Shown: piece after piece, positions 19,573 to 35,524 of the stretch | How the letters are laid out: every line of letters starts with the position of its first letter | Numbering within the stretch: the stretch's first letter is position 1 | Position numbers and translations under genes: made by a program | Notes under the pieces: model-generated | What the model was told of the DNA's origin: nothing | The model's database searches: none | The model's input: the letters and a program-made list of their open reading frames with translations, nothing else | Source of the DNA: a virus | Strand: one strand, 5' to 3' | DNA length: 35,524 nt | Virus record (IMG/VR): IMGVR_UViG_3300018082_000004 | Location: 1-35,524 of that record

Positions 19573-19732
19573 AGTTTCTATTGCCTGCCTGTAGCCAACC
19601 CTCCGCGATACAATGCTCATAGATGTGCTTGATCAGGTTGCGGCTGAACTTTGCTGGATGAGAAAATGCATCGTCCACCATCAGCCCCTTCCACCCGCCG
19701 CGATACAGGTTTCTCCAGTCGTCAATCATCAT
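19550..19732 (-). pseudogene. Probable truncated DNA methylase remnant
   Basis: 60 residues. The start DDWRNLYRGGWKGLMVDDAF, followed by HPAKFSRNLIKHIYEHC and EGWLQAG, is the N-terminal lead of phage N4/N6 DNA methylases, in which EGW-x-x-GD is followed at once by VLDPFGG (motif I). Here the frame departs exactly there (GNRNYDSQNLR, then stop). All catalytic parts are missing. Either a remnant after deletion or a small protein kept for binding DNA or host methylase. Two or three ATG codons (19741, 19732, 19729) compete. Confidence 0.6.
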
Positions 19733-19979
19733 CGTAGTCATCCTGTTCGGCGAGTTCGCGCCACGTCGCGGGCGCAGGGTCAACCCCCTCAGAGGATTCA
19801 GGCGAATATGCACGGACAGCAATAAGCTCCTGAGCGGCATCCAATTGCGCGCGCAACTCATCCCGCTCACGTGTGAGTCGCTCCACCTCTTCGTGCAACC
19901 GAGCCAACGCCCGCTCCGCTCCGCGCAGACGACTAGCATGCACCCACACCTCATCTTGAATCGGGTAATCTGCCGTCAT
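19722..19979 (-). CDS. Coiled-coil protein
   Basis: 85 residues, ATG 19979 behind a strong GGGAGGATGAC. Residues 15 to 52 form a charged heptad helix (ERALARLHEEVERLTRERDE, and on). The C-terminus is acidic and ends DDYDDD. It is the third gene of the J-domain/vWA cassette, so it may bridge or multimerise those proteins. That is inference from order only. Confidence 0.72.
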   Translation of the reverse strand: MTADYPIQDEVWVHASRLRGAERALARLHEEVERLTRERDELRAQLDAAQELIAVRAYSPESSEGVDPAPATWRELAEQDDYDDD

Positions 19980-19980
19980 G

Positions 19981-20541
19981 TCATCCTCCCATCAATCGCA
20001 ACACGGGATCGGCGAGCTGCGCAATTGCATCGCTCTGCACGAAACGACCGCCGGTCGCCTCGCTCAGCCGACATAGGAAATCGCGACCACGACCGGCTTC
20101 GGGGCCGATGTAAATCGCATCGATATGCGATTTGAAGGTGCGCGCGACTTGCAGTGCAGTCGTCTCATCGTTTGGCTCGCCATCGCTCACCACGATGAGA
20201 TGGATGCCGCAATCGTCGGCGACCTTGACGAAACGCAATGCCTCAGTGAGATTCGTTCCGCCGTTCAACTCAGGATAGTCACCGCCCGGCACGAATTGCA
20301 CAGTCGATGAGAAGACGATGATACCGATGCGACCGGGTAGTGTAGCCTGGATCCGGCGCAGTTCGTCGCGTGCCGCGTCATGTCGGCGGCGGTTGTTCGG
20401 CGCGTCATTAGTTGCCATGCTGCCACTCGAATCAACAATGACCAGCGCATCGCAGGACAGGAACGATTCAGCTAGGCTGTGGTGATTCTTTTGCGCTGAA
20501 TCGAGCAACGAACCAGGGACAATAGTCAGTTGTGTTGTCAT
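19981..20541 (-). CDS. von Willebrand factor A (vWA) domain protein
   Basis: 186 residues from ATG 20541, overlapping the J-domain gene stop as ATGA. Complete metal-ion-dependent adhesion site: DSSGS at residues 37 to 41, GGTNLTEA, and VSDGEPND. The rest is a Rossmann-like vWA fold with IGIIVFSSTVQFVP and ATGGRFVQSDAIAQL. No AAA+ MoxR partner is nearby, unlike most bacterial vWA pairs. vWA proteins mediate metal-dependent protein contacts; here the partner may be the J-domain protein or a host complex. Confidence 0.88.
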   Translation of the reverse strand: MTTQLTIVPGSLLDSAQKNHHSLAESFLSCDALVIVDSSGSMATNDAPNNRRRHDAARDELRRIQATLPGRIGIIVFSSTVQFVPGGDYPELNGGTNLTEALRFVKVADDCGIHLIVVSDGEPNDETTALQVARTFKSHIDAIYIGPEAGRGRDFLCRLSEATGGRFVQSDAIAQLADPVLRLMGG

Positions 20542-21365
20542 TGTGTCACCCATTGTGTCGTGAAATGGTCGTCGCCCAGCCGCCATGTCGTCACCATGAC
20601 GAGACCCTGACCATCGGTCACATCTTCCCATGCCAGAATCTTCGAGACGGCGAACTTGCCGACGCCAGGCAGTCCCTCGGCAACCAACAGCCCACAGCGC
20701 AGCGGCGGCGTCCAACGGGTCAGAGCGCGGAGTGGATCGAAGTGATGATCGCGGCGACTTGTGCTGGCGGCGAGTGCTAAGCCAGCATCATACTTGCGTC
20801 GCAGCAACGTATCGGATAGCACTCGATATGCCGCGGCGACCTGCTTGAACACGTCGCCCGCGTTGACCTCCTGACATACATCGGGATGCCACTGCCGAGC
20901 CAGGCGACGATAGGCGCGTTTCACATCGTCGTCGTCGGCATTGCGCTTGACCAACAGCATATCGTAGAGTGTGCCATCGGTATCCGGTGTGTCACGTCGA
21001 GATGTTGTGCCGTCAAACCACTGGCGCAGCACGGCGTTAGGAACGACCACCGACCAGCCGCCACCACACCAAGCAAAGGACGAGAACGATCCGTCGCTGC
21101 GTTCCTTCGGCGCGCCGATGTATTCGATGCGGAGTAACCGTTGCACAGGAGCCGACTGATTCTGCACAGCGACCAGCGGCAACACGTCGAATCCCGCCTC
21201 GCGACATGCCTCCTGCACAAATCGCAAGTGACGCGCGTGCACCCGCCACACCCGACCTACCTTGTCCCAGGCGCGATCTTCCAGCGGCAGCGACTTGAGC
21301 CGCGCCACCAACGACGCGCTGTATGGCATCTTCACTTCGAGCACATCACCGACTTGTCGTATCAT
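20538..21365 (-). CDS. HARP-like / J-domain (DnaJ-type) fusion protein
   Basis: 275 residues from ATG 21365 (a TTG at 21380 would add five). The first 55 residues have a HARP-like pattern, VARLKSLPLEDRAWDKVGRVW in part, as found in annealing helicases and some phage proteins. Residues 132 to 190 are a J domain (TLYDMLLVKRNADDDDVKRA in part) with the HPD triplet at 160 to 162, needed to stimulate DnaK. The last 75 residues are unassigned. A phage J protein could direct host DnaK to replication or to capsid factors, as lambda and T4 do with host chaperones. Confidence 0.85.
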   Translation of the reverse strand: MIRQVGDVLEVKMPYSASLVARLKSLPLEDRAWDKVGRVWRVHARHLRFVQEACREAGFDVLPLVAVQNQSAPVQRLLRIEYIGAPKERSDGSFSSFAWCGGGWSVVVPNAVLRQWFDGTTSRRDTPDTDGTLYDMLLVKRNADDDDVKRAYRRLARQWHPDVCQEVNAGDVFKQVAAAYRVLSDTLLRRKYDAGLALAASTSRRDHHFDPLRALTRWTPPLRCGLLVAEGLPGVGKFAVSKILAWEDVTDGQGLVMVTTWRLGDDHFTTQWVTQ

Positions 21366-21479: not shown

Positions 21480-22607
21480 CTATAACGCAACACCCGTAAA
21501 ACCCCATACTTTTTGGCCTTTTCTGTTGTTGCGTTTGACCCGTTTGAGACCCAATCTCCTAGCACAGGCACCCAAACCATGCGAATTTTGTATCGTAATA
21601 CCCCCAGAACCATAGAGAATTTCAAGAATTTCATCGGTTGGAATCCACCAATCATCATGACTTTTATCAACGGTGAGGTATCGTTTGAGCAATCCCTCGA
21701 TGCTGTCGTCAATCTCATAACGCGCATTGATTGCCCGCTGCGCCAGCATCTCGACATCGGATAGCAACCATGATTCACCGCGCAGGTAGGCAGCGTACGC
21801 CTCGGCCCACACCTGCGATATATCGACGTTGCCTGTATATCCCTTCCAATCGATGGATTCAACGTGGCACACCAGGAAACGTCGGCTGCCTGTCGGGTCA
21901 TTCAGCAATCCCGCTTCGTCATTGACTGTGCCGATGAATGAGGCCATTGCAGGCATCTCTATATCGTGCTTAGCATAAGGCGGTCTGACCGTGATATGCC
22001 GTAGCGTGATGATATGTTTAAGCGCCTCACGATCGGCACGTCGAACCGTTGCGCCCAGCTCTGCAACTTCCCATATCCATTTTGACGCAATGCGAAGATA
22101 AGTATCTTTATCGTCAGGCAAGATAGCCGCCTCGATATGATAATCAGGTAGTGGACACAACCAACGCACCAACTCGCTCTTGCCGATGCCTTGTGCGCCA
22201 TCCAGAACCAATATCGGATTCTGTTCGGCTTTCACGACTTTCGCCACTGCGCCAATGAGCCACTTACGCAACCAGACCGAAAATACGCCATCCGTATCTC
22301 GAACATAGGAGGCCAATCTTGCGATGTGTGATTGGCCGTCAAATTGAAGCGCAGCTTGAGTGAGGTAGGATCGGACGGGATGATAGCGATTCTGGTAAGC
22401 CTGGTGAATGATACAATCGGTGAGGATGCTCATATTACGATAGCCACGTTCGCGCATGTCGATCCGAATCTTAGCCTCAATACCTTCGTGCATGGGTTGA
22501 CTACCCACTTCGATTCGATTCGCACACTCGTTATAACGCAAGTTGAGGTTGAGTGATTGCAGCGCTGTAAGGACACGTGAAGGCTTGATCGTTGTTTTGG
22601 TCGCCAT
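21480..22607 (-). CDS. VapE/VirE-type replication ATPase (helicase-like)
   Basis: 375 residues behind GGGAG. Walker A is GAQGIGKS at residues 137 to 144. Downstream are the family's ELGATVRRADREALKHIIT and VRPPYA, FIGTVNDEAGLLNDPTG and RRFLV (quoted in pieces), the characteristic VirE order. No primase domain precedes it, so it is shorter than the primase-helicase fusions in many prophages. It probably opens or unwinds the phage origin and relies on host primase and polymerase. C-terminal 60 residues look like a winged helix. Confidence 0.9.
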   Translation of the reverse strand: MATKTTIKPSRVLTALQSLNLNLRYNECANRIEVGSQPMHEGIEAKIRIDMRERGYRNMSILTDCIIHQAYQNRYHPVRSYLTQAALQFDGQSHIARLASYVRDTDGVFSVWLRKWLIGAVAKVVKAEQNPILVLDGAQGIGKSELVRWLCPLPDYHIEAAILPDDKDTYLRIASKWIWEVAELGATVRRADREALKHIITLRHITVRPPYAKHDIEMPAMASFIGTVNDEAGLLNDPTGSRRFLVCHVESIDWKGYTGNVDISQVWAEAYAAYLRGESWLLSDVEMLAQRAINARYEIDDSIEGLLKRYLTVDKSHDDWWIPTDEILEILYGSGGITIQNSHGLGACARRLGLKRVKRNNRKGQKVWGFTGVAL

Positions 22608-22678: not shown

Positions 22679-23212
22679 CTAATCAGTGATCCAGGGGAAC
22701 TTGGTCTGAGCAGGAGTTCCCGATCGTGCTTGTTCGATTACATTCTCAATGCTATCAAGATTAGATTTGCGTATCTTATAAGCTGCAGTGCGAGAGCCGC
22801 GTTCTCTAGCTTCGTCGGATATTACCCCTGTGACCACAAGTCTATCTATAAAGTTGCCTCTAAATTTGCCGTCTGGCATTTCCCACATAATGCACACTTG
22901 TACGTGAGGCTCTCTCTTGGATAACTCCCGACAAGCATTGAATGAAGCAATCTCAGAGAGAACCATGTCAAACTCCTCCGAACGACGGCCATCTTTGACT
23001 TGCCAATATATTGTCGGCAGTTCAGCGAGGATGATGTCTGGAAAATGCCGAACGAATACAGAATCCCTAATCATGGGTCGCTGCTCTACAGCATGATAGC
23101 CAAGTTTGAGAGCTGTCTCAGAAAAATGTTTCTCTACTTCAGTGCCTCTTGCTAATCGCTGTTCCCAAGTGCTCGACGCCAGATCAGCAAGTCTCTCGAT
23201 AGGTATAGCCAT
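22679..23212 (-). CDS. Possible PD-(D/E)XK-like nuclease, partner of the methyltransferase
   Basis: 177 residues, ATG 23212 behind AAGGAG, overlapping the methyltransferase end by 61 bases. Residues 15 to 75 have an (E)-x(n)-PD-x(n)-(E/Q)xK-like order: EVEKHF, then HFPDIILAEL and YWQVKDG, a strand-turn-strand as in restriction enzymes, with Q in place of the usual E. C-terminal half is helical and basic. Because it directly follows a DNA methyltransferase in the same operon, a type II-like restriction role is the first guess; a repair or nicking enzyme is possible. The motif is weak. Confidence 0.55.
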   Translation of the reverse strand: MAIPIERLADLASSTWEQRLARGTEVEKHFSETALKLGYHAVEQRPMIRDSVFVRHFPDIILAELPTIYWQVKDGRRSEEFDMVLSEIASFNACRELSKREPHVQVCIMWEMPDGKFRGNFIDRLVVTGVISDEARERGSRTAAYKIRKSNLDSIENVIEQARSGTPAQTKFPWITD

Positions 23213-24342
23213 TGCTTATTCTCCTTAGCCATATTGACGTAGTTGCCACCATGAATCTGTGTTGTATATGGAACGATGATTCTATGGTAGGGGATTCCCA
23301 CATCTAGAATGAGGTCAGCAGCATGATCGATGAACTGCCATTTCTCCTGAGTCGGCCCTATGATAAGAGCAACCACACCACCAGGTTTGATGAAATGGAG
23401 GCAATCTCTGACTATCTTTGAAAGAGACTGTCTGAATACCTGGAGTGGCATATTCGCCAAATTGGTATCCTGTGTACTGTACTCCCCTCTTTTCTGTTTC
23501 CAGTAGGGAGGATCGAGGAATACCATTTTGGCTTGTGAAACGTCGGGAATTCCCTCATGCACAATGTCTCGTTGAATGATGTCGTCACGTCGCGGATCAA
23601 TATCGTAGGTGAGACATTTTCTTCGCCCAAAATCCGGGTCATCGTATTGGCAAACATCGAGTGAAACTCCGCCGCCACCAAAGAGGTCTATGATTAGATC
23701 ATCGGGACTGGTGTAATAATAATTTAGGTTCTGCATGATTTGTCCGGGAATTTGACCCGGATGCTCTTGTCCGAATCTCGGATCGGGCGCTGCGAAGTTC
23801 CAGATGTTGAATATCCTCAGCCAGGGTCGCGTATCGTCTGGCGAGAAAAACAACTCGAGCCACAATCGCAGCAGGGCCGCCGTGCTGATTTCCTGCTTGG
23901 CTGCTGTTGCGTCTATGATCCACCGCTCGAAGTCGGCGTCGGCGATCTGCGCGGCGCGCTGCCAGTGGTAAGAATTGTTCCTGGTGAGACCGTCAGGCAA
24001 ACGGGAAATCAAAGTCACATCATGTGACTTTGATTTTCTATCTCCTCCGCGCCGGATGCCATTTGCCAGCATTCCGCCGATGACCCGTTCGGCGCGCAGC
24101 CGCTCGGCCACAACCAGATTGCTATCGACCAGTCGAGCGCGTTGCAGTTTGAACCAATCCCCAATTGTCTTGAGTTTCTTACGGACTTCGTGCGCGGCGG
24201 CGGGATCGCCATCTGCTTGAGCGGCGAGCAGGGCACTGTGGGCGGCATTAACGAGGGTGATTGCCAACTCGCGCGATGGATGAAAATCCTGTCGTTTGAG
24301 ATTGGCCGTAGCTTCTTCTAGTTTGACGATTGCTGTTGACAA
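23152..24342 (-). CDS. DNA methyltransferase (N6-adenine or N4-cytosine) with N-terminal DNA-binding-like region
   Basis: 396 residues from TTG 24342. SAM motif I is DLFGGGG (219 to 225) and the catalytic motif IV is DPPY (277 to 280), in the I-before-IV order. The first 110 residues are helical with EVRKKLKTIGDWFKLQRAR and RLRAERVIGG, then RRGGDRKSKSHD, a pattern common in ParB-like/methylase fusion proteins of phages. Target base is not decided by the motif. It may protect phage DNA from host restriction or pair with the next gene. Start region is folded into a long hairpin, and a 31-bp palindrome lies in the coding part. Confidence 0.88.
   Translation of the reverse strand: MSTAIVKLEEATANLKRQDFHPSRELAITLVNAAHSALLAAQADGDPAAAHEVRKKLKTIGDWFKLQRARLVDSNLVVAERLRAERVIGGMLANGIRRGGDRKSKSHDVTLISRLPDGLTRNNSYHWQRAAQIADADFERWIIDATAAKQEISTAALLRLWLELFFSPDDTRPWLRIFNIWNFAAPDPRFGQEHPGQIPGQIMQNLNYYYTSPDDLIIDLFGGGGVSLDVCQYDDPDFGRRKCLTYDIDPRRDDIIQRDIVHEGIPDVSQAKMVFLDPPYWKQKRGEYSTQDTNLANMPLQVFRQSLSKIVRDCLHFIKPGGVVALIIGPTQEKWQFIDHAADLILDVGIPYHRIIVPYTTQIHGGNYVNMAKENKQWLYLSRDLLIWRRALGNSD
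24005..24035. repeat. 31-base perfect palindrome inside the methyltransferase gene
   Basis: AAATCAAAGTCACAT, one central C, then the exact reverse complement. It lies in the gene for about residues 103 to 113, at the low-conservation linker between the N-terminal region and the methylase domain. Unusually AT-rich for the gene. It may be an operator, a methyltransferase target cluster (GTCAC/GTGAC), or a relic of an insertion. Confidence 0.92.
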
Positions 24343-25514: not shown

Positions 25515-25741
25515 CGGAACGCCTCCGGCACACTGTGCGCGTCGCGTTCGCCAAGCGCATAGGCAGCGCGAATACAGCTCACGGCGAGAGGAATGAGATC
25601 GGTCGGCGACATGCACTGCGAGGAATACACCAACGTCGTAACCAGCGCAGCCAGATCACCTATTCGACTCGCGTGCAACTGCGCCTCGTCGCTTTGTACG
25701 GAATCGATCACATCGAGCGCCTGTTGCATCACCGGATTCAT
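25511..25741 (-). CDS. Hypothetical helical protein
   Basis: 76 residues from ATG 25741, overlapping the Rad52-like stop as ATGA behind GGGGAGG. All-helical with MQQALDVIDSVQSDEAQLHA and a Cys/Ser-rich middle. No motif. It is coupled to Rad52-like and LuxR-like genes. Confidence 0.7.
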   Translation of the reverse strand: MNPVMQQALDVIDSVQSDEAQLHASRIGDLAALVTTLVYSSQCMSPTDLIPLAVSCIRAAYALGERDAHSVPEAFR

Positions 25742-26565
25742 TTCGCCTCCCCGTACTTCTCGACCAGCCGTTGCCACGTCGCCGCCACGTCCAGCGACGG
25801 CAGTTGATGCGGTTGCACATCCATGACCGCCACGATGTCGGTCGCCGTGATCTGCCAGCGCGAGGTCGCCTTGCTGAGCAGCTCGGCGATTGACTTCGGC
25901 GGCAGGTTAGCTATCTCACGCTGCAAATCGACTTGAGTCCGCTGCTTCTCCATGTGGTCTTCCAGCATCGCCTCATCATCCCAGTACAACGTCAAACCGA
26001 AGGCCGGCCCCAGCGGCATCGCGCAACGCCGTAGAGCAGTCGATTCGGCAGCACTCACCACGAATCCAAAACGCTGCTTCTTCCGCCATTCGGCAGAACC
26101 CGACGCCGAGAGCACCTTGACGATCGGCTGAGAAATGAGCGATTGACCGTGCTCGTCTAAGGGTCGGATACGCAGGCTCAACCGACCGAATACCATGACA
26201 GATAGGTCGGTGCTCTTGTTGCCTTCCGGTGGAATCAGACGGTACGGCTCGCCGCTGTAGACCGGCAATATCTCGAAATCCCAATCCATCCCGAAGATTT
26301 CAATTAGCTTCAGTCGAACATAGCCGTGCTTGAGATACGGATAAGCTCGGCCTTCACCGCCATCGCGCATCTTGATCGCATAGCTAGGTGGCGGTTGCAT
26401 GAGCAGCGCAAATTTCTCGTGCGGCAAGTACATCCCCGCTCCATCAAAAACAATGGAGCGCATTGCCTCAGCTTCGTCAGGCGATATTTCGCGCCCGTTC
26501 GCCGTGAGCAATGCCAGATCATGCCGGATGTGAATCGGAATTGGTTTCTTTGCTTTCGTCGCCAT
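25738..26565 (-). CDS. Rad52/22-family single-strand annealing protein
   Basis: 275 residues behind AGGAGG. Typical order of phage Rad52-like annealases: YPYLKHGYVRLKLIEIFGMD WDFEIL (helix then strand, in pieces), a beta sheet with DLSVMVFGRLSLRIRP, and the helical SAAESTALRRCAMPLGPAFGLTLY (in part), which matches the ALK-x-A-x-x-DALKRC..LG..FGL pattern. The last 70 residues are a separate helical part. It anneals single strands for recombination-dependent replication or repair. Overlaps the nuclease gene by 47 bases. Confidence 0.88.
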   Translation of the reverse strand: MATKAKKPIPIHIRHDLALLTANGREISPDEAEAMRSIVFDGAGMYLPHEKFALLMQPPPSYAIKMRDGGEGRAYPYLKHGYVRLKLIEIFGMDWDFEILPVYSGEPYRLIPPEGNKSTDLSVMVFGRLSLRIRPLDEHGQSLISQPIVKVLSASGSAEWRKKQRFGFVVSAAESTALRRCAMPLGPAFGLTLYWDDEAMLEDHMEKQRTQVDLQREIANLPPKSIAELLSKATSRWQITATDIVAVMDVQPHQLPSLDVAATWQRLVEKYGEAK

Positions 26566-27295
26566 CGCGACCTCCTATGATCTCGAATAGTTCACCGTCA
26601 TTGAACTGCAGAAAGTCAAGCGCGCGATCCACATCCGACGGCCGCCAGCCATCGGGTAGGTCAACGCGCGACCAGTTCCTCATCAGTGGCAGCAGTGTCA
26701 GCACGTCGCACAATCGAGGCGCACAAGCCGCCAATGCAGCGGCCCGCTTCGGCCCGATGCCAGGGATGCCAGCGATGAATGCGGTATGCGGGTCGAGGGT
26801 TTCGAGCGTGATTGCGGGTCGCGGCACAGCAGGGAATCGCTCTTTTGATGCGGTATGAATCGCCTCATCGAGTGTGGCAATGTACTCGCCACCGCGACAG
26901 AACTCAACATTCACACCGCTCCACTGTGCAACTCGCAAAGCGGCACGCACGGCGACACCATCCCACCCTTTTGATTTGCCATCATTTGTTGTATCGCGTC
27001 CATCGGCGATCACCTTATCACGATGGTCGTACAATAACGACCCGTGGACAACAAGCAACGAGAATCGCGCGAAGGCGACCATCGCGCGACACTGCTCGAA
27101 CAACCGGCCATCACCGATGCTGGACAGCAAATCGCCTGGCGTCTTGCGCTCCACAGCCAGGATACCTTGCGGCGTCATCACGTTCACGTCACCCGCTTGC
27201 AGCTGCGAGATATGCATGGCGCTGAAGTGACGCTGCATCGCGTCGACGATGCCAGGCGCAGTCGCCGCTTCGTTGCTATCGACCAGGATGATCAC
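26519..27295 (-). CDS. ERCC4 (XPF/MUS81-type) nuclease with helix-hairpin-helix
   Basis: 258 residues from GTG 27295. The nuclease core is complete: VDSNEAA (D6), GDV (D36) and VERK (E49, R50, K51), followed by DLLSSIGDGRLFEQC, as in XPF/MUS81. Residues 172 to 190 are a helix-hairpin-helix (IAGIPGIGPKRAAALA). The acidic end (GRDGDESKETN) may be a contact tail. It would cut branched DNA such as flaps and forks. The overlap with the Rad52-like gene suggests a joint recombination system. Confidence 0.9.
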   Translation of the reverse strand: MIILVDSNEAATAPGIVDAMQRHFSAMHISQLQAGDVNVMTPQGILAVERKTPGDLLSSIGDGRLFEQCRAMVAFARFSLLVVHGSLLYDHRDKVIADGRDTTNDGKSKGWDGVAVRAALRVAQWSGVNVEFCRGGEYIATLDEAIHTASKERFPAVPRPAITLETLDPHTAFIAGIPGIGPKRAAALAACAPRLCDVLTLLPLMRNWSRVDLPDGWRPSDVDRALDFLQFNDGELFEIIGGRDGDESKETNSDSHPA

Positions 27296-32218: not shown

Positions 32219-32407
32219 CTATTGCCGACACATCCATTCCAGCCGTAACTTCCTCGCCAACGAGTCTATTTCTATTCGGTTATCCAATCGTTTTACAAGA
32301 TCGCCAACCCGTGCGGATTGTACTGGGCGATCCACTTCTTCCTGTGAAGGAACGATGAGTATCGCAATCGGCCCGACAAGCATCTTTAGAAAATCACGCC
32401 GATGCAT
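32219..32407 (-). CDS. Small protein with Tat-like or membrane-anchor start
   Basis: 62 residues, ATG 32407 overlapping the tail gene end by 14 bases. MHRRDFLKMLVGPIAILIVP has the RRxFLK pattern of twin-arginine signals and a hydrophobic helix. The remaining 40 residues are charged and helical. Last gene of the late operon. It may be exported or anchored by Tat, or be a simple membrane protein. No cleavage motif (AxA) is seen. Confidence 0.6.
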   Translation of the reverse strand: MHRRDFLKMLVGPIAILIVPSQEEVDRPVQSARVGDLVKRLDNRIEIDSLARKLRLEWMCRQ

Positions 32408-34010
32408 TTTGATACGCCCCAGCGATCACCGCTGCCACGTCGAGCGGCCGACCCAGCGTCAGCGACACCGTCTCACTTGCATCGTCGTACTCTGTGCGTT
32501 GAATCAGGAATGTAAAACCACTCCCCGCCGTCTCGTCGCCAAAGTCAGCTAAGAAGTTCTCAATCTTCAACCGCTTGCCGGATTGCACCTGTGAGACAGG
32601 TACTTCCTGTCCCGACTTGCCGCGCAGATAGCCGACCATGCGTAGCGCCCCATCAACATAGTATTGCAACTTCTTCAACTGATTGAGCACCGTGTTACCG
32701 TAGTCCGCCGCCGCAGTCAGCGTCGTGATACCCGATCCCGCTCTGACCACCAGTGCGCGCTCGAAATACTTATTGCCGCCTGCCGTATCGCGTGCCGTGA
32801 AATCCCACTGCTCACGGCCTCGATCGTCGCGGAACACGACGAGAATCCACGTCTTGAGCATATCCGGCGACGCTGAGGAGACCAGCCGACCGCCGCCCAG
32901 GAAGTTCAGATCATCGATACGAATCGCATAGTCGTAGTCGGTCAATGCCGGTTGTTGCTCGTAATAGATGACCGGTGTTACACTGCCCGCGATGGCTTCC
33001 GATTCGCGCACTCCGACGCTAAAAGCAGCATCTGTCGTGCTGAACTTTGCAACGCGCACCATGAAGGCGCCGATCGATTCATTCAAATCGTCGCCCGTCA
33101 AACCGGCAGTTTCCAGATCGTAAGTGTTCGCCGCAATGAGCGCCGTACTGCTGTTGAAGGTGTCCGCGCCGCCCGTATCGGCGTAGACCACATACGCCCT
33201 CAAGATGTCCCCGACTGTCGTCGTGACTGCGCCGGATGCATTCTCGCACAGCACACGCAGATTCTTGATCTCGCCAAAGATGGCGCTACCTGTCGGCGTC
33301 TGCGCTGCACGCGCGTAGAGTCGGAATTCCAGCACCGCCGTCGATGTGCCGAGCGTGATGTCCTGCGTTCCTATGCCGCTGACGATCACGCTCCACAGCG
33401 ATACCGCATTGGTCACATCGAACAGCTCTAACTCCCACGCCTGAGCACCCTCTTGCAGCTCAAAGTCGAACTTTACCCGTTTGGCATTGCTGCCCGCATT
33501 GGCATTCCAACGGAACTGCGCCCGCTCGTTCAATGCCCAAGCTTCCTGCTTCGGTTCGATGCGAAGTCTGTCTGTGCGGTCAAACAACGCCTTGTCGTTC
33601 GCATTCGCATCGAGCACGTCCCACACGCCGAATAGAGTTGACCCGAAGCGCCGGTCGATAACACGATTGTATTTGTATCGGCCATGCATCAGCGTGACGA
33701 ATCCCAAACACTGCACACTGACCCGATCGCCATCCAGATCGTAGCCGATGTCGGAGATGAACCCTTCCCACACGATACGTACCCCGTTGCGAATAACGAT
33801 GCGCTGCGCGTGTTTGAACGGCAATGCCCGTGTCACATCGCGCTTGATGATGAATGAAGCATCCAGGAAAATACCGCCTGGATATGCGCTGGAGAATCGG
33901 ATCGATTCGGCTAGCGCCAATTCGTTATCAGGATCGGCAATCTGCGTTGATCCGCTCGAATAGATTTCGAGTTGCAGGTTATTATAACCGGTACGCTCAA
34001 CAGCCATCAC
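32394..34010 (-). CDS. Tail tip / baseplate hub-like protein
   Basis: 538 residues from GTG 34010 (overlaps the upstream stop as GTGA) or the ATG at 34007. The first 110 residues (LQLEIYSSGS, WEGFISDIGYDLDGDRVSVQ) resemble hub-domain strands of siphovirus tail proteins. The middle is a beta sandwich (QFRWNANAGSNAKRVKFDFE), and the end again has hub-like strands (GYLRGKSGQEVPVSQVQSGK, then VSLTLGRPLDVAAVIAGAY). Likely part of the tail end that touches the host surface. Assigned by position and strand pattern. Confidence 0.75.
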   Translation of the reverse strand: MMAVERTGYNNLQLEIYSSGSTQIADPDNELALAESIRFSSAYPGGIFLDASFIIKRDVTRALPFKHAQRIVIRNGVRIVWEGFISDIGYDLDGDRVSVQCLGFVTLMHGRYKYNRVIDRRFGSTLFGVWDVLDANANDKALFDRTDRLRIEPKQEAWALNERAQFRWNANAGSNAKRVKFDFELQEGAQAWELELFDVTNAVSLWSVIVSGIGTQDITLGTSTAVLEFRLYARAAQTPTGSAIFGEIKNLRVLCENASGAVTTTVGDILRAYVVYADTGGADTFNSSTALIAANTYDLETAGLTGDDLNESIGAFMVRVAKFSTTDAAFSVGVRESEAIAGSVTPVIYYEQQPALTDYDYAIRIDDLNFLGGGRLVSSASPDMLKTWILVVFRDDRGREQWDFTARDTAGGNKYFERALVVRAGSGITTLTAAADYGNTVLNQLKKLQYYVDGALRMVGYLRGKSGQEVPVSQVQSGKRLKIENFLADFGDETAGSGFTFLIQRTEYDDASETVSLTLGRPLDVAAVIAGAYQNASA

Positions 34011-35524
34011 AACAAACTCCAGCGCGGCACAACGAGAACTTTCGAGTAAGTGAGCGTCGCAGCGATACCGGTATCCAGCGTCTCGGATGCGATGAACATT
34101 GTGACTAGATTATATTTCTCCGGCCATAACTCGAACACGTCGCCGATTACATTCAGCGGCGCGGATGAGGGCAAGATGCGCGCGATCCGACCATCAAACA
34201 GAATATTGCCGGTGCTAGCATCGACTGTGATCACAACGAGCGGTCTGGTCATCACTGCGAAATAGTCCAGGCGAACGGCGGCACTGCCAGTCGTTCTGAC
34301 TGCACGTATCTGTATATCGCCATAGTTCGGATTGTCATCCAGATAACGAGGATGTCTACTTGCGCCAGAGAATACAGCAGGCAGTGTCCTGAACTGTCTG
34401 AACGCTGCTACCGTCGTAATCGCTCTGAGTTCGGCGGCAGGCGCTACCGTCCCATCCGTGATCCGATAACCTATCTTTAGATTTGCCCCAGAGTCGAATA
34501 GCCTCACGTAGACGTAGGCTTCTTTACCCGCCAATAATTTTGATTGTCGGATACTGAGATCGTTGGCGGTGTTGAGTGACAACTCAACTGTACTGACGGC
34601 CAACGTCTCTTTGTAGGCCCCGCCCGATGCCGTCGCGTCTGCCACTCCACTCTGATCAAAGAACATGAATTGATCGGGTGTAAGAAAATCACCACCCTCT
34701 ATAATATTATTGCTCAACACGATGTCAGCCAATTGGACGGATGGCAACATGCTGATATAGGTTTCTGCCGCCGCGCTGCCCGGTATCCCGCCGCACACAA
34801 TCCAGTTATCGTCATTGGCGTCCGAGTCATCGTGGTTCACCACGTCGTCGTCGCCATCCGACGACCACAGCCAGGGTATCGCCCCGATGCGCTGATCGTC
34901 AGCGGTCAGCTTCGAGAGGTTATTGTAGTCGGCCAGCACTTGCGCCGCCGTCAGCGCCACATCGAGAATAGTGAAGTTCGTGAATGTACCGCCCGGTTGA
35001 TTGACCGCCCCAGAATCTGAGCCCACGTATAGAAATGACGCAAGCGCCGAGGGTGTGTAAGTCACATTCGTTGCCACGCTCTGACCATTCACGTATAGAA
35101 CCAAGCCGCCAGCGGCGGAGGCGACAGCATGGAAGATGATCGTGTCACCGATAGAAAATACCTGCGCTGCGCTTGTAGCCTGATTCGTCCCATCACGGAA
35201 AACATATACGTTCGAGCCGGTGTCGAATCGGCAATGAAATGTCGATCCGAAATCCCAGAAGTAGACTGTGCCCAAATCAGATGAGTTTCGCGCCGTCTTC
35301 CAAATCCATCCAAAGGTGAACTGTGCATTGCTGAAGGTGTCACTTCCAACTGCTAATCTTGCCCGCGCAGCCGTGCGAGTGCTTGTGCTGGCATGCGCCG
35401 TGCCAGACCATGCATTGCCTAGCAAATCGCCGTATGCCAGTGGCGTAGCGTAGGTCTTCAGTTCAATCTGGAATCCATCGGCATAAACCGTGTAAGGCGA
35501 AAGAACAATAATCCCATAGTTCCC
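34007..35524 (-). CDS. Tail tip protein, C-terminal part (continues from 1 to 1050)
   Basis: The open frame runs off the right edge and, because of the terminal repeat, joins the N-terminal part at 1 to 1050. This part gives overall residues about 310 to 814. Residues about 370 to 512 are a concanavalin/LamG-like lectin fold (FTFGWIWKTARN, then LVLYVNGQSVATNVTYTPS and FTNFTILDVALTAAQVLADY, in pieces). Residues about 540 to 760 form one more beta sandwich with IRQSKLLAGKEAYVYVRL. Two sugar-binding-type domains in a tail gene argue for receptor binding to host surface glycans. Stop 34007. Confidence 0.85.
   Translation of the reverse strand, partial: GNYGIIVLSPYTVYADGFQIELKTYATPLAYGDLLGNAWSGTAHASTSTRTAARARLAVGSDTFSNAQFTFGWIWKTARNSSDLGTVYFWDFGSTFHCRFDTGSNVYVFRDGTNQATSAAQVFSIGDTIIFHAVASAAGGLVLYVNGQSVATNVTYTPSALASFLYVGSDSGAVNQPGGTFTNFTILDVALTAAQVLADYNNLSKLTADDQRIGAIPWLWSSDGDDDVVNHDDSDANDDNWIVCGGIPGSAAAETYISMLPSVQLADIVLSNNIIEGGDFLTPDQFMFFDQSGVADATASGGAYKETLAVSTVELSLNTANDLSIRQSKLLAGKEAYVYVRLFDSGANLKIGYRITDGTVAPAAELRAITTVAAFRQFRTLPAVFSGASRHPRYLDDNPNYGDIQIRAVRTTGSAAVRLDYFAVMTRPLVVITVDASTGNILFDGRIARILPSSAPLNVIGDVFELWPEKYNLVTMFIASETLDTGIAATLTYSKVLVVPRWSLL
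35402..35524. repeat. Terminal direct repeat, right copy
   Basis: Identical to bases 1 to 123. See the left copy. Counting it once gives a circle of about 35,401 bases. Confidence 0.95.

Follow-up and report, generated by a model that had tools for sequence, protein, structure and literature searches.

Phage homologous recombination is usually described as the work of an exonuclease and an annealase, and in lambda the gam gene sits with both of these in the recombination operon. Lambda O-P-DnaB with host DnaK and DnaJ, taken together with lambda red (exo-bet-gam), resembles the locus described here in DnaK-dependent phage DNA metabolism and in the layout of the recombination operon; lambda, however, uses the DnaJ of its host and encodes neither a J protein nor a vWA protein. 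The first functional phage J-domain protein, Rki (gp057w), was found in phage RB43 (PMC3486835). Rki and the J protein of our locus are both phage-encoded, both have a J domain with an HPD motif and private flanking sequence, and both are expected to work with the host DnaK. In Rki, however, the J domain is N-terminal and about 75 aa long, no HARP-like domain has been reported, and the protein acts on sigma32. RB43 also lists a vWA open reading frame, 119c, which is numbered far from 057w (PMC1524935), whereas the J and vWA genes adjoin in our locus.

Like our locus, the MoxR-vWA pairs of Acidianus two-tailed virus and of jumbo phages have a vWA protein with a metal site that is expected to work with an ATP-driven chaperone (PMC7824862, PMC7159879), and in related MoxR systems this metal site binds an extended or unstructured peptide (PMC7159879). 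In those pairs, the partner is MoxR and the context virion assembly, as proposed for the jumbo phages, whereas our vWA protein goes with an Hsp70 co-chaperone, there is no MoxR/AAA_5 protein, and the context is one of recombination. HARP domains give SNF2 proteins their annealing-helicase activity (PMC4035279); the SMARCAL1/HARP annealing helicases share the HARP-like domain with our J protein but have an SNF2 motor, whereas our protein combines that domain with a J domain. Finally, Hsp70/DnaJ and vWA themes both occur in the GAP1-N2 conflict systems (HSP70, GrpE and a DnaJ-fused protein), which are nevertheless cellular and GTPase-based, have HSP70/DnaJ and vWA in separate subsets, and involve no phage, HARP or recombination genes (PMC7159879). 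Phage J proteins and phage MoxR-vWA pairs are already known. In the literature searched (subscription papers and preprints lay outside its reach), nothing described J and vWA paired within a recombination operon, in agreement with the original prediction that no phage system of this kind had been described.

The window, that is, the whole stretch of DNA analysed, is a virus record of 35,524 bases with genes for a portal, a major head protein, a prohead protease, a terminase, a tape measure and an M23 lysis peptidase. The features that matter here are as follows.

20538..21365, minus strand: J-domain protein of 275 aa, in the order HARP-like N-terminal domain, beta segment, J domain, beta segment
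21174..21365, minus strand: HARP-like N-terminal domain, residues 1-64 of the J protein (likely remote homology; sub-threshold PF07443, family profile leading to 4o66)
21006..21158, minus strand: first half of a probable beta-rich domain, residues 70-120 of the J protein (model strands 74-109; Y82 and L113 invariant)
20787..20969, minus strand: J domain with HPD, residues 133-193 of the J protein (PF00226)
20541..20720, minus strand: second half of the probable beta-rich domain, residues 216-275 of the J protein (model strands 225-273; G225, W246 and W272 invariant)
19981..20541, minus strand: vWA protein of 186 aa with a complete MIDAS (D37, S39, S41, T96, D120)
19722..19979, minus strand: coiled-coil-like open reading frame of 85 aa, co-transcribed judging by its position
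21480..22607, minus strand: VapE/DUF5906-type helicase, the upstream neighbour of J (PF05272, E 1.3e-41)
25738..26565, minus strand: Rad52-like annealing protein (PF04098, 14.7 bits, under the cut-off)
26519..27295, minus strand: ERCC4-type nuclease with an HHH-like C-terminus (PF02732, E 2.7e-9)

The stop codon of the J gene and the ATG of the vWA gene share an ATGA overlap, which makes translational coupling of the two genes probable, and the 85-aa reading frame begins 1 nt past the vWA stop. Helicase and methylase genes separate J from the recombination genes in the window. Within that interval, at 22679-24342, a 177-aa protein of no assigned family overlaps the DNA methylase gene (PF01555), and the two are possibly a methylase and its partner nuclease. 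At the end of the window (32394-35425) lie two large minus-strand reading frames of 538 and 472 aa, the latter with a sub-threshold match to Laminin_G_3, so that a role in receptor binding or in the tail is possible.

The J domain is unambiguous: the window protein matches PF00226 with 70.2 bits against a Pfam cut-off of 27.8 (E 4.7e-22 to 1.6e-19). Its HPD motif occupies residues 160-162 and is whole in 83 of the 84 aligned family members, H160 and D162 being kept in all 84 and P161 in 83. By its Pfam score, by the position of the HPD in the loop between helices II and III and by its fold match, the protein fits the class C type of J-domain proteins (Hsp40). The N-terminal region is more distant from anything described. 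The HARP domain PF07443 scores 14.1 bits in the window protein, under the Pfam cut-off of 25, and is matched by 18 of the 84 relatives (best E 1.4e-5). When a family profile built from 28 relatives was compared with 177,635 PDB sequences, the top match was the HARP domain of SMARCAL1 (4o66; E 0.0013, 21 bits), the second match reaching only 12.9 bits, 8 below it. These matches suggest that the region is likely a remote homologue of the HARP domain. Besides DnaJ, no Pfam domain exceeds its cut-off in the window protein, and there is no SNF2 motor, so this is not an annealing helicase of the SMARCAL1/HARP kind.

The HARP-like part is missing from three of the 84 relatives (L003, L043 and L040), so DNA targeting through it is not essential everywhere. 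In two of them, a 36-aa Cys-rich, zinc-finger-like reading frame overlaps the start of the HARP-less J gene (L003:7897-8007 and L043:2822-2932).

An AlphaFold model of the J protein, made from 84 sequences (mean pLDDT 89.8), predicts a compact HARP-like unit at 1-60, strands at 74-109, a helix at 110-118, the J domain at 133-202 bordered by weaker loops, and strands at 225-273. The invariant residues are shared between both beta segments, whose profile found no relative in the PDB or Pfam, and the model suggests that the segments are probably a single beta domain into which the J domain is inserted. A fold search with the whole model returned J-domain matches only and is uninformative on the HARP-like and beta parts.

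The vWA protein scores 26.6 bits against PF13519, just below the cut-off of 27. Its AlphaFold model (mean pLDDT 91.7) finds solved vWA domains as its best fold-search matches, which confirms, at the level of the model, a Rossmann-like vWA fold. The MIDAS residues D37, S39 and S41 (DxSxS), T96 and D120 are invariant in 89 of 89 vWA proteins. More distant proteins, 34-38% identical to that of the window, are found on the Xanthomonas citri plasmid pXAC219 and on Delftia plasmids (L186, L187), where they sit in overlapping multi-gene operons of no assigned function, with no J neighbour beside them.

Neither a phage Hsp70 nor a MoxR-type AAA_5 ATPase was found in 35 records (that of the window and 34 relatives), and both were therefore rejected as partners of the pair. 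The vWA protein is thus not half of a MoxR-vWA pair, and the host DnaK is the sole expected partner of the J protein. The original prediction had read the locus as three tightly coupled genes, encoding a HARP-like region fused to a J domain with its HPD intact, a vWA protein with a full metal site but no MoxR-type ATPase nearby, and a coiled-coil protein. Its description of the first two proteins is borne out, the relation to HARP appearing real but remote, as is the placement of the three reading frames. The coiled-coil-like reading frame, however, has no relative in any J/vWA locus compared and is private to the window; it was accordingly rejected as a third partner, and the conserved unit reduces to two genes.

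Relatives were gathered by separate searches with each protein in IMG/VR, as well as in bacterial and archaeal genomes, and then by profile re-scoring. The vWA family was found in 98 contigs and the J family in 92, with both in 89 (IMG/VR and a few MAG contigs). With the vWA query alone, 73 strong contigs were obtained: 65 carry J, six end shortly upstream, and two are uncut and lack J, there being no J-family match in their whole records (L055 and L080). With the J query alone, 58 of 61 strong contigs carry the vWA gene and a 59th carries it at the other end of the contig; the remaining two contigs are fragmentary (14.6 and 10.7 kb). As controls, none of 12 generic phage J-domain loci from the same search carried this vWA family and none of six distant vWA loci carried this J family, which makes the association specific to the two families. 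In 84 of 87 loci, both genes share a strand and J comes first. Among 75 pairs measured, 11 overlap (10 of them by exactly 4 nt), while in 19 the gap exceeds 1 kb and contains intervening genes. Separations of up to 5.4 kb occur in some loci. There is strong support, then, for an almost obligate J-vWA pair in some ninety phage-type genomes, and the check proposed at the outset, co-occurrence of J and vWA genes in phages, was passed strongly. In the record of the Manatee Spring phage (MW202444.1), the two genes are already annotated as 'chaperone protein dnaJ' and vWA; no publication naming this record was found in the literature searched.

In a survey of 400 Chloroflexota genomes, the vWA family proper occurred only in the genome already known, along with two diverged copies. 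The two genomes concerned (L182-L185) have a diverged vWA protein of 164-170 bits that keeps a MIDAS-like DxSxS and whose gene begins 15-21 bases after an HPD-bearing reading frame of a different build, with the HPD in a J-like helix pair, a proline-rich linker and a different C-terminus. Against PF00226, one of these reading frames scores 16 bits (E 0.011), below the cut-off, and the other has no match. Since a diverged vWA gene directly follows a different HPD protein, the J-vWA coupling may persist even when the remainder of J is replaced; if these are true J proteins, the two cases are suggestive of a partnership that outlived the replacement of nearly everything else in J. One of the two sits among reading frames that by eye are ParB-like, RadC-like and ThiF-like, a region read as resembling a PRTRC mobile element. 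As for hosts, four of the five close matches in genome contigs fall in Chloroflexi/Anaerolineae bins and one in a Verrucomicrobia bin; these contigs may be viral and binned with their hosts, so a Chloroflexi or Verrucomicrobia host is a lead only.

The surroundings of the pair are those of DNA metabolism. Clusters of reading frames in 87 loci include a primase-polymerase in 71, an ERCC4 nuclease in 60, RecT in 49, a PD-(D/E)XK Cas4-like nuclease in 42 and a VapE helicase in 37. Going upstream from J, the first gene with an assigned family (72 loci) is Cas4-like in 39 loci and RecT in 20, with ERCC4 (5) and a Sak4-like ATPase (3) bringing the total to 67. In L005, a Rad52-type annealase gene overlaps the start of J in an overlapping annealase-J-vWA triplet; in L040, the same kind of triplet has a RecT-type gene (named by its likeness to the RecT of L090), whose stop overlaps the start of the HARP-less J. 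The annealase has been swapped among unrelated kinds while the J-vWA pair remains. In 52 of the 87 loci, the ERCC4 gene has upstream of it the gene of an unnamed conserved protein of about 250 aa (for example, L076:1562-2323), one representative of which had no Pfam or PHROG match.

We put at roughly 50% the probability that the J and vWA proteins act together as a single phage device for bringing the host DnaK to the phage's DNA-recombination machinery. A fuller version of this reading is offered more tentatively: that the two make up an undescribed system in which the vWA metal site is the client adaptor for an Hsp70 co-chaperone and DnaK works in phage homologous recombination. What the comparisons show is the near-constant pairing, the intact J domain and metal site, the lack of a phage Hsp70, and a position in the recombination block with which the pair diverges; the biochemical steps we infer from knowledge of the families. 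The HPD-bearing J domain would stimulate ATP hydrolysis by the host DnaK, the HARP-like domain would target the J protein to DNA that is branched or partly single-stranded, and the vWA metal site would grip an acidic peptide of the client or of the J protein itself. The client that J and vWA would then pass to DnaK might be the annealing protein, the exonuclease or a host protein sitting on the end of the phage DNA; DnaK, as the ATP-driven step, would dissociate or reload the recombination complex.

Another explanation is based on position. The pair shares its neighbourhood with an exonuclease and an annealase, as gam does in lambda, and from this 'gam' position it might turn DnaK against a host enzyme that attacks phage DNA ends (RecBCD/AddAB-like) or against a defence complex, stripping it off or unfolding it. 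That a phage J-domain protein can interfere with host DnaK function is known from Rki (PMC3486835). We nonetheless consider such a counter-nuclease unlikely: neither J nor vWA has a match in PADLOC-DB, a library of known anti-phage defence in which anti-defence proteins are not listed, and almost every member retains the pair, although rapid turnover is usual for counter-defence genes.

A further explanation, in the manner of lambda O-P-DnaB, would be that the pair remodels the replication complex at origins or forks, where it would load or free the helicase or primase of the phage. HARP proteins do act at replication forks (PMC4035279), and 71 of the 87 loci have the primase downstream and 37 have VapE. 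Co-divergence, obtained by comparing distance matrices over 81 non-redundant contigs, points elsewhere. The correlation (rho) is 0.68 between J and vWA; with ERCC4, it is 0.60 for J and 0.69 for vWA, and for J it is 0.54 with RecT and 0.47 with Cas4. With VapE, in contrast, it is 0.07 for J and 0.19 for vWA, a comparison that is fair although n = 33, since the VapE cluster (median distance 0.59) is not so diverse as those of the primase and the terminase. These last two single-linkage clusters have a median distance of about 0.8, which weakens their correlations (primase: 0.20 for J and 0.27 for vWA; terminase: 0.02 for both). Primase and VapE correlate with each other at 0.71. The J-vWA pair, co-diverging with the recombination genes and not with VapE or the terminase, thus belongs to the recombination block, even if part of this co-divergence is plain linkage due to the shared descent of operon neighbours. 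Moreover, the pair is found alongside VapE, RepA-type and D5/RepB-type proteins alike. A role in replication-complex remodelling is therefore quite improbable. As to the proposal that DnaK is directed to the replication fork or to a host target, with the vWA protein as a putative adaptor, a DnaK-directed J/HARP-like protein is supported, but the fork is a less likely destination than recombination because the pair adjoins and diverges with ERCC4, RecT and Cas4-like genes and not with VapE.

Two other explanations fit the genomic setting worst. General rewiring of the host, in which J would titrate DnaK and induce the heat-shock response, with vWA as a modulator, has a precedent in Rki of RB43, a phage J protein shown to act on DnaK and sigma32 (PMC3486835); it is nevertheless very improbable, as it accounts neither for the HARP-like domain, nor for the strict partnership with vWA, nor for the co-divergence with recombination genes. 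Least probable of all is a chaperone pair for virion assembly, proposed for other phages on the basis of the DnaJ and MoxR-vWA genes of jumbo phages (PMC7824862), given the absence of MoxR, the lack of correlation with the terminase and the location of the pair among DNA-metabolism genes.

Recruitment of DnaK to recombination lends itself to a direct test, with two short genes, key residues that are known and one host chaperone. If it is true, phage recombination would include a chaperone step, supplied by a DnaK-recruiting pair that is close to obligate in some ninety phage genomes. The vWA adaptors would also gain a second class of ATP-driven partner, with vWA serving Hsp70 here as it serves MoxR ATPases elsewhere.
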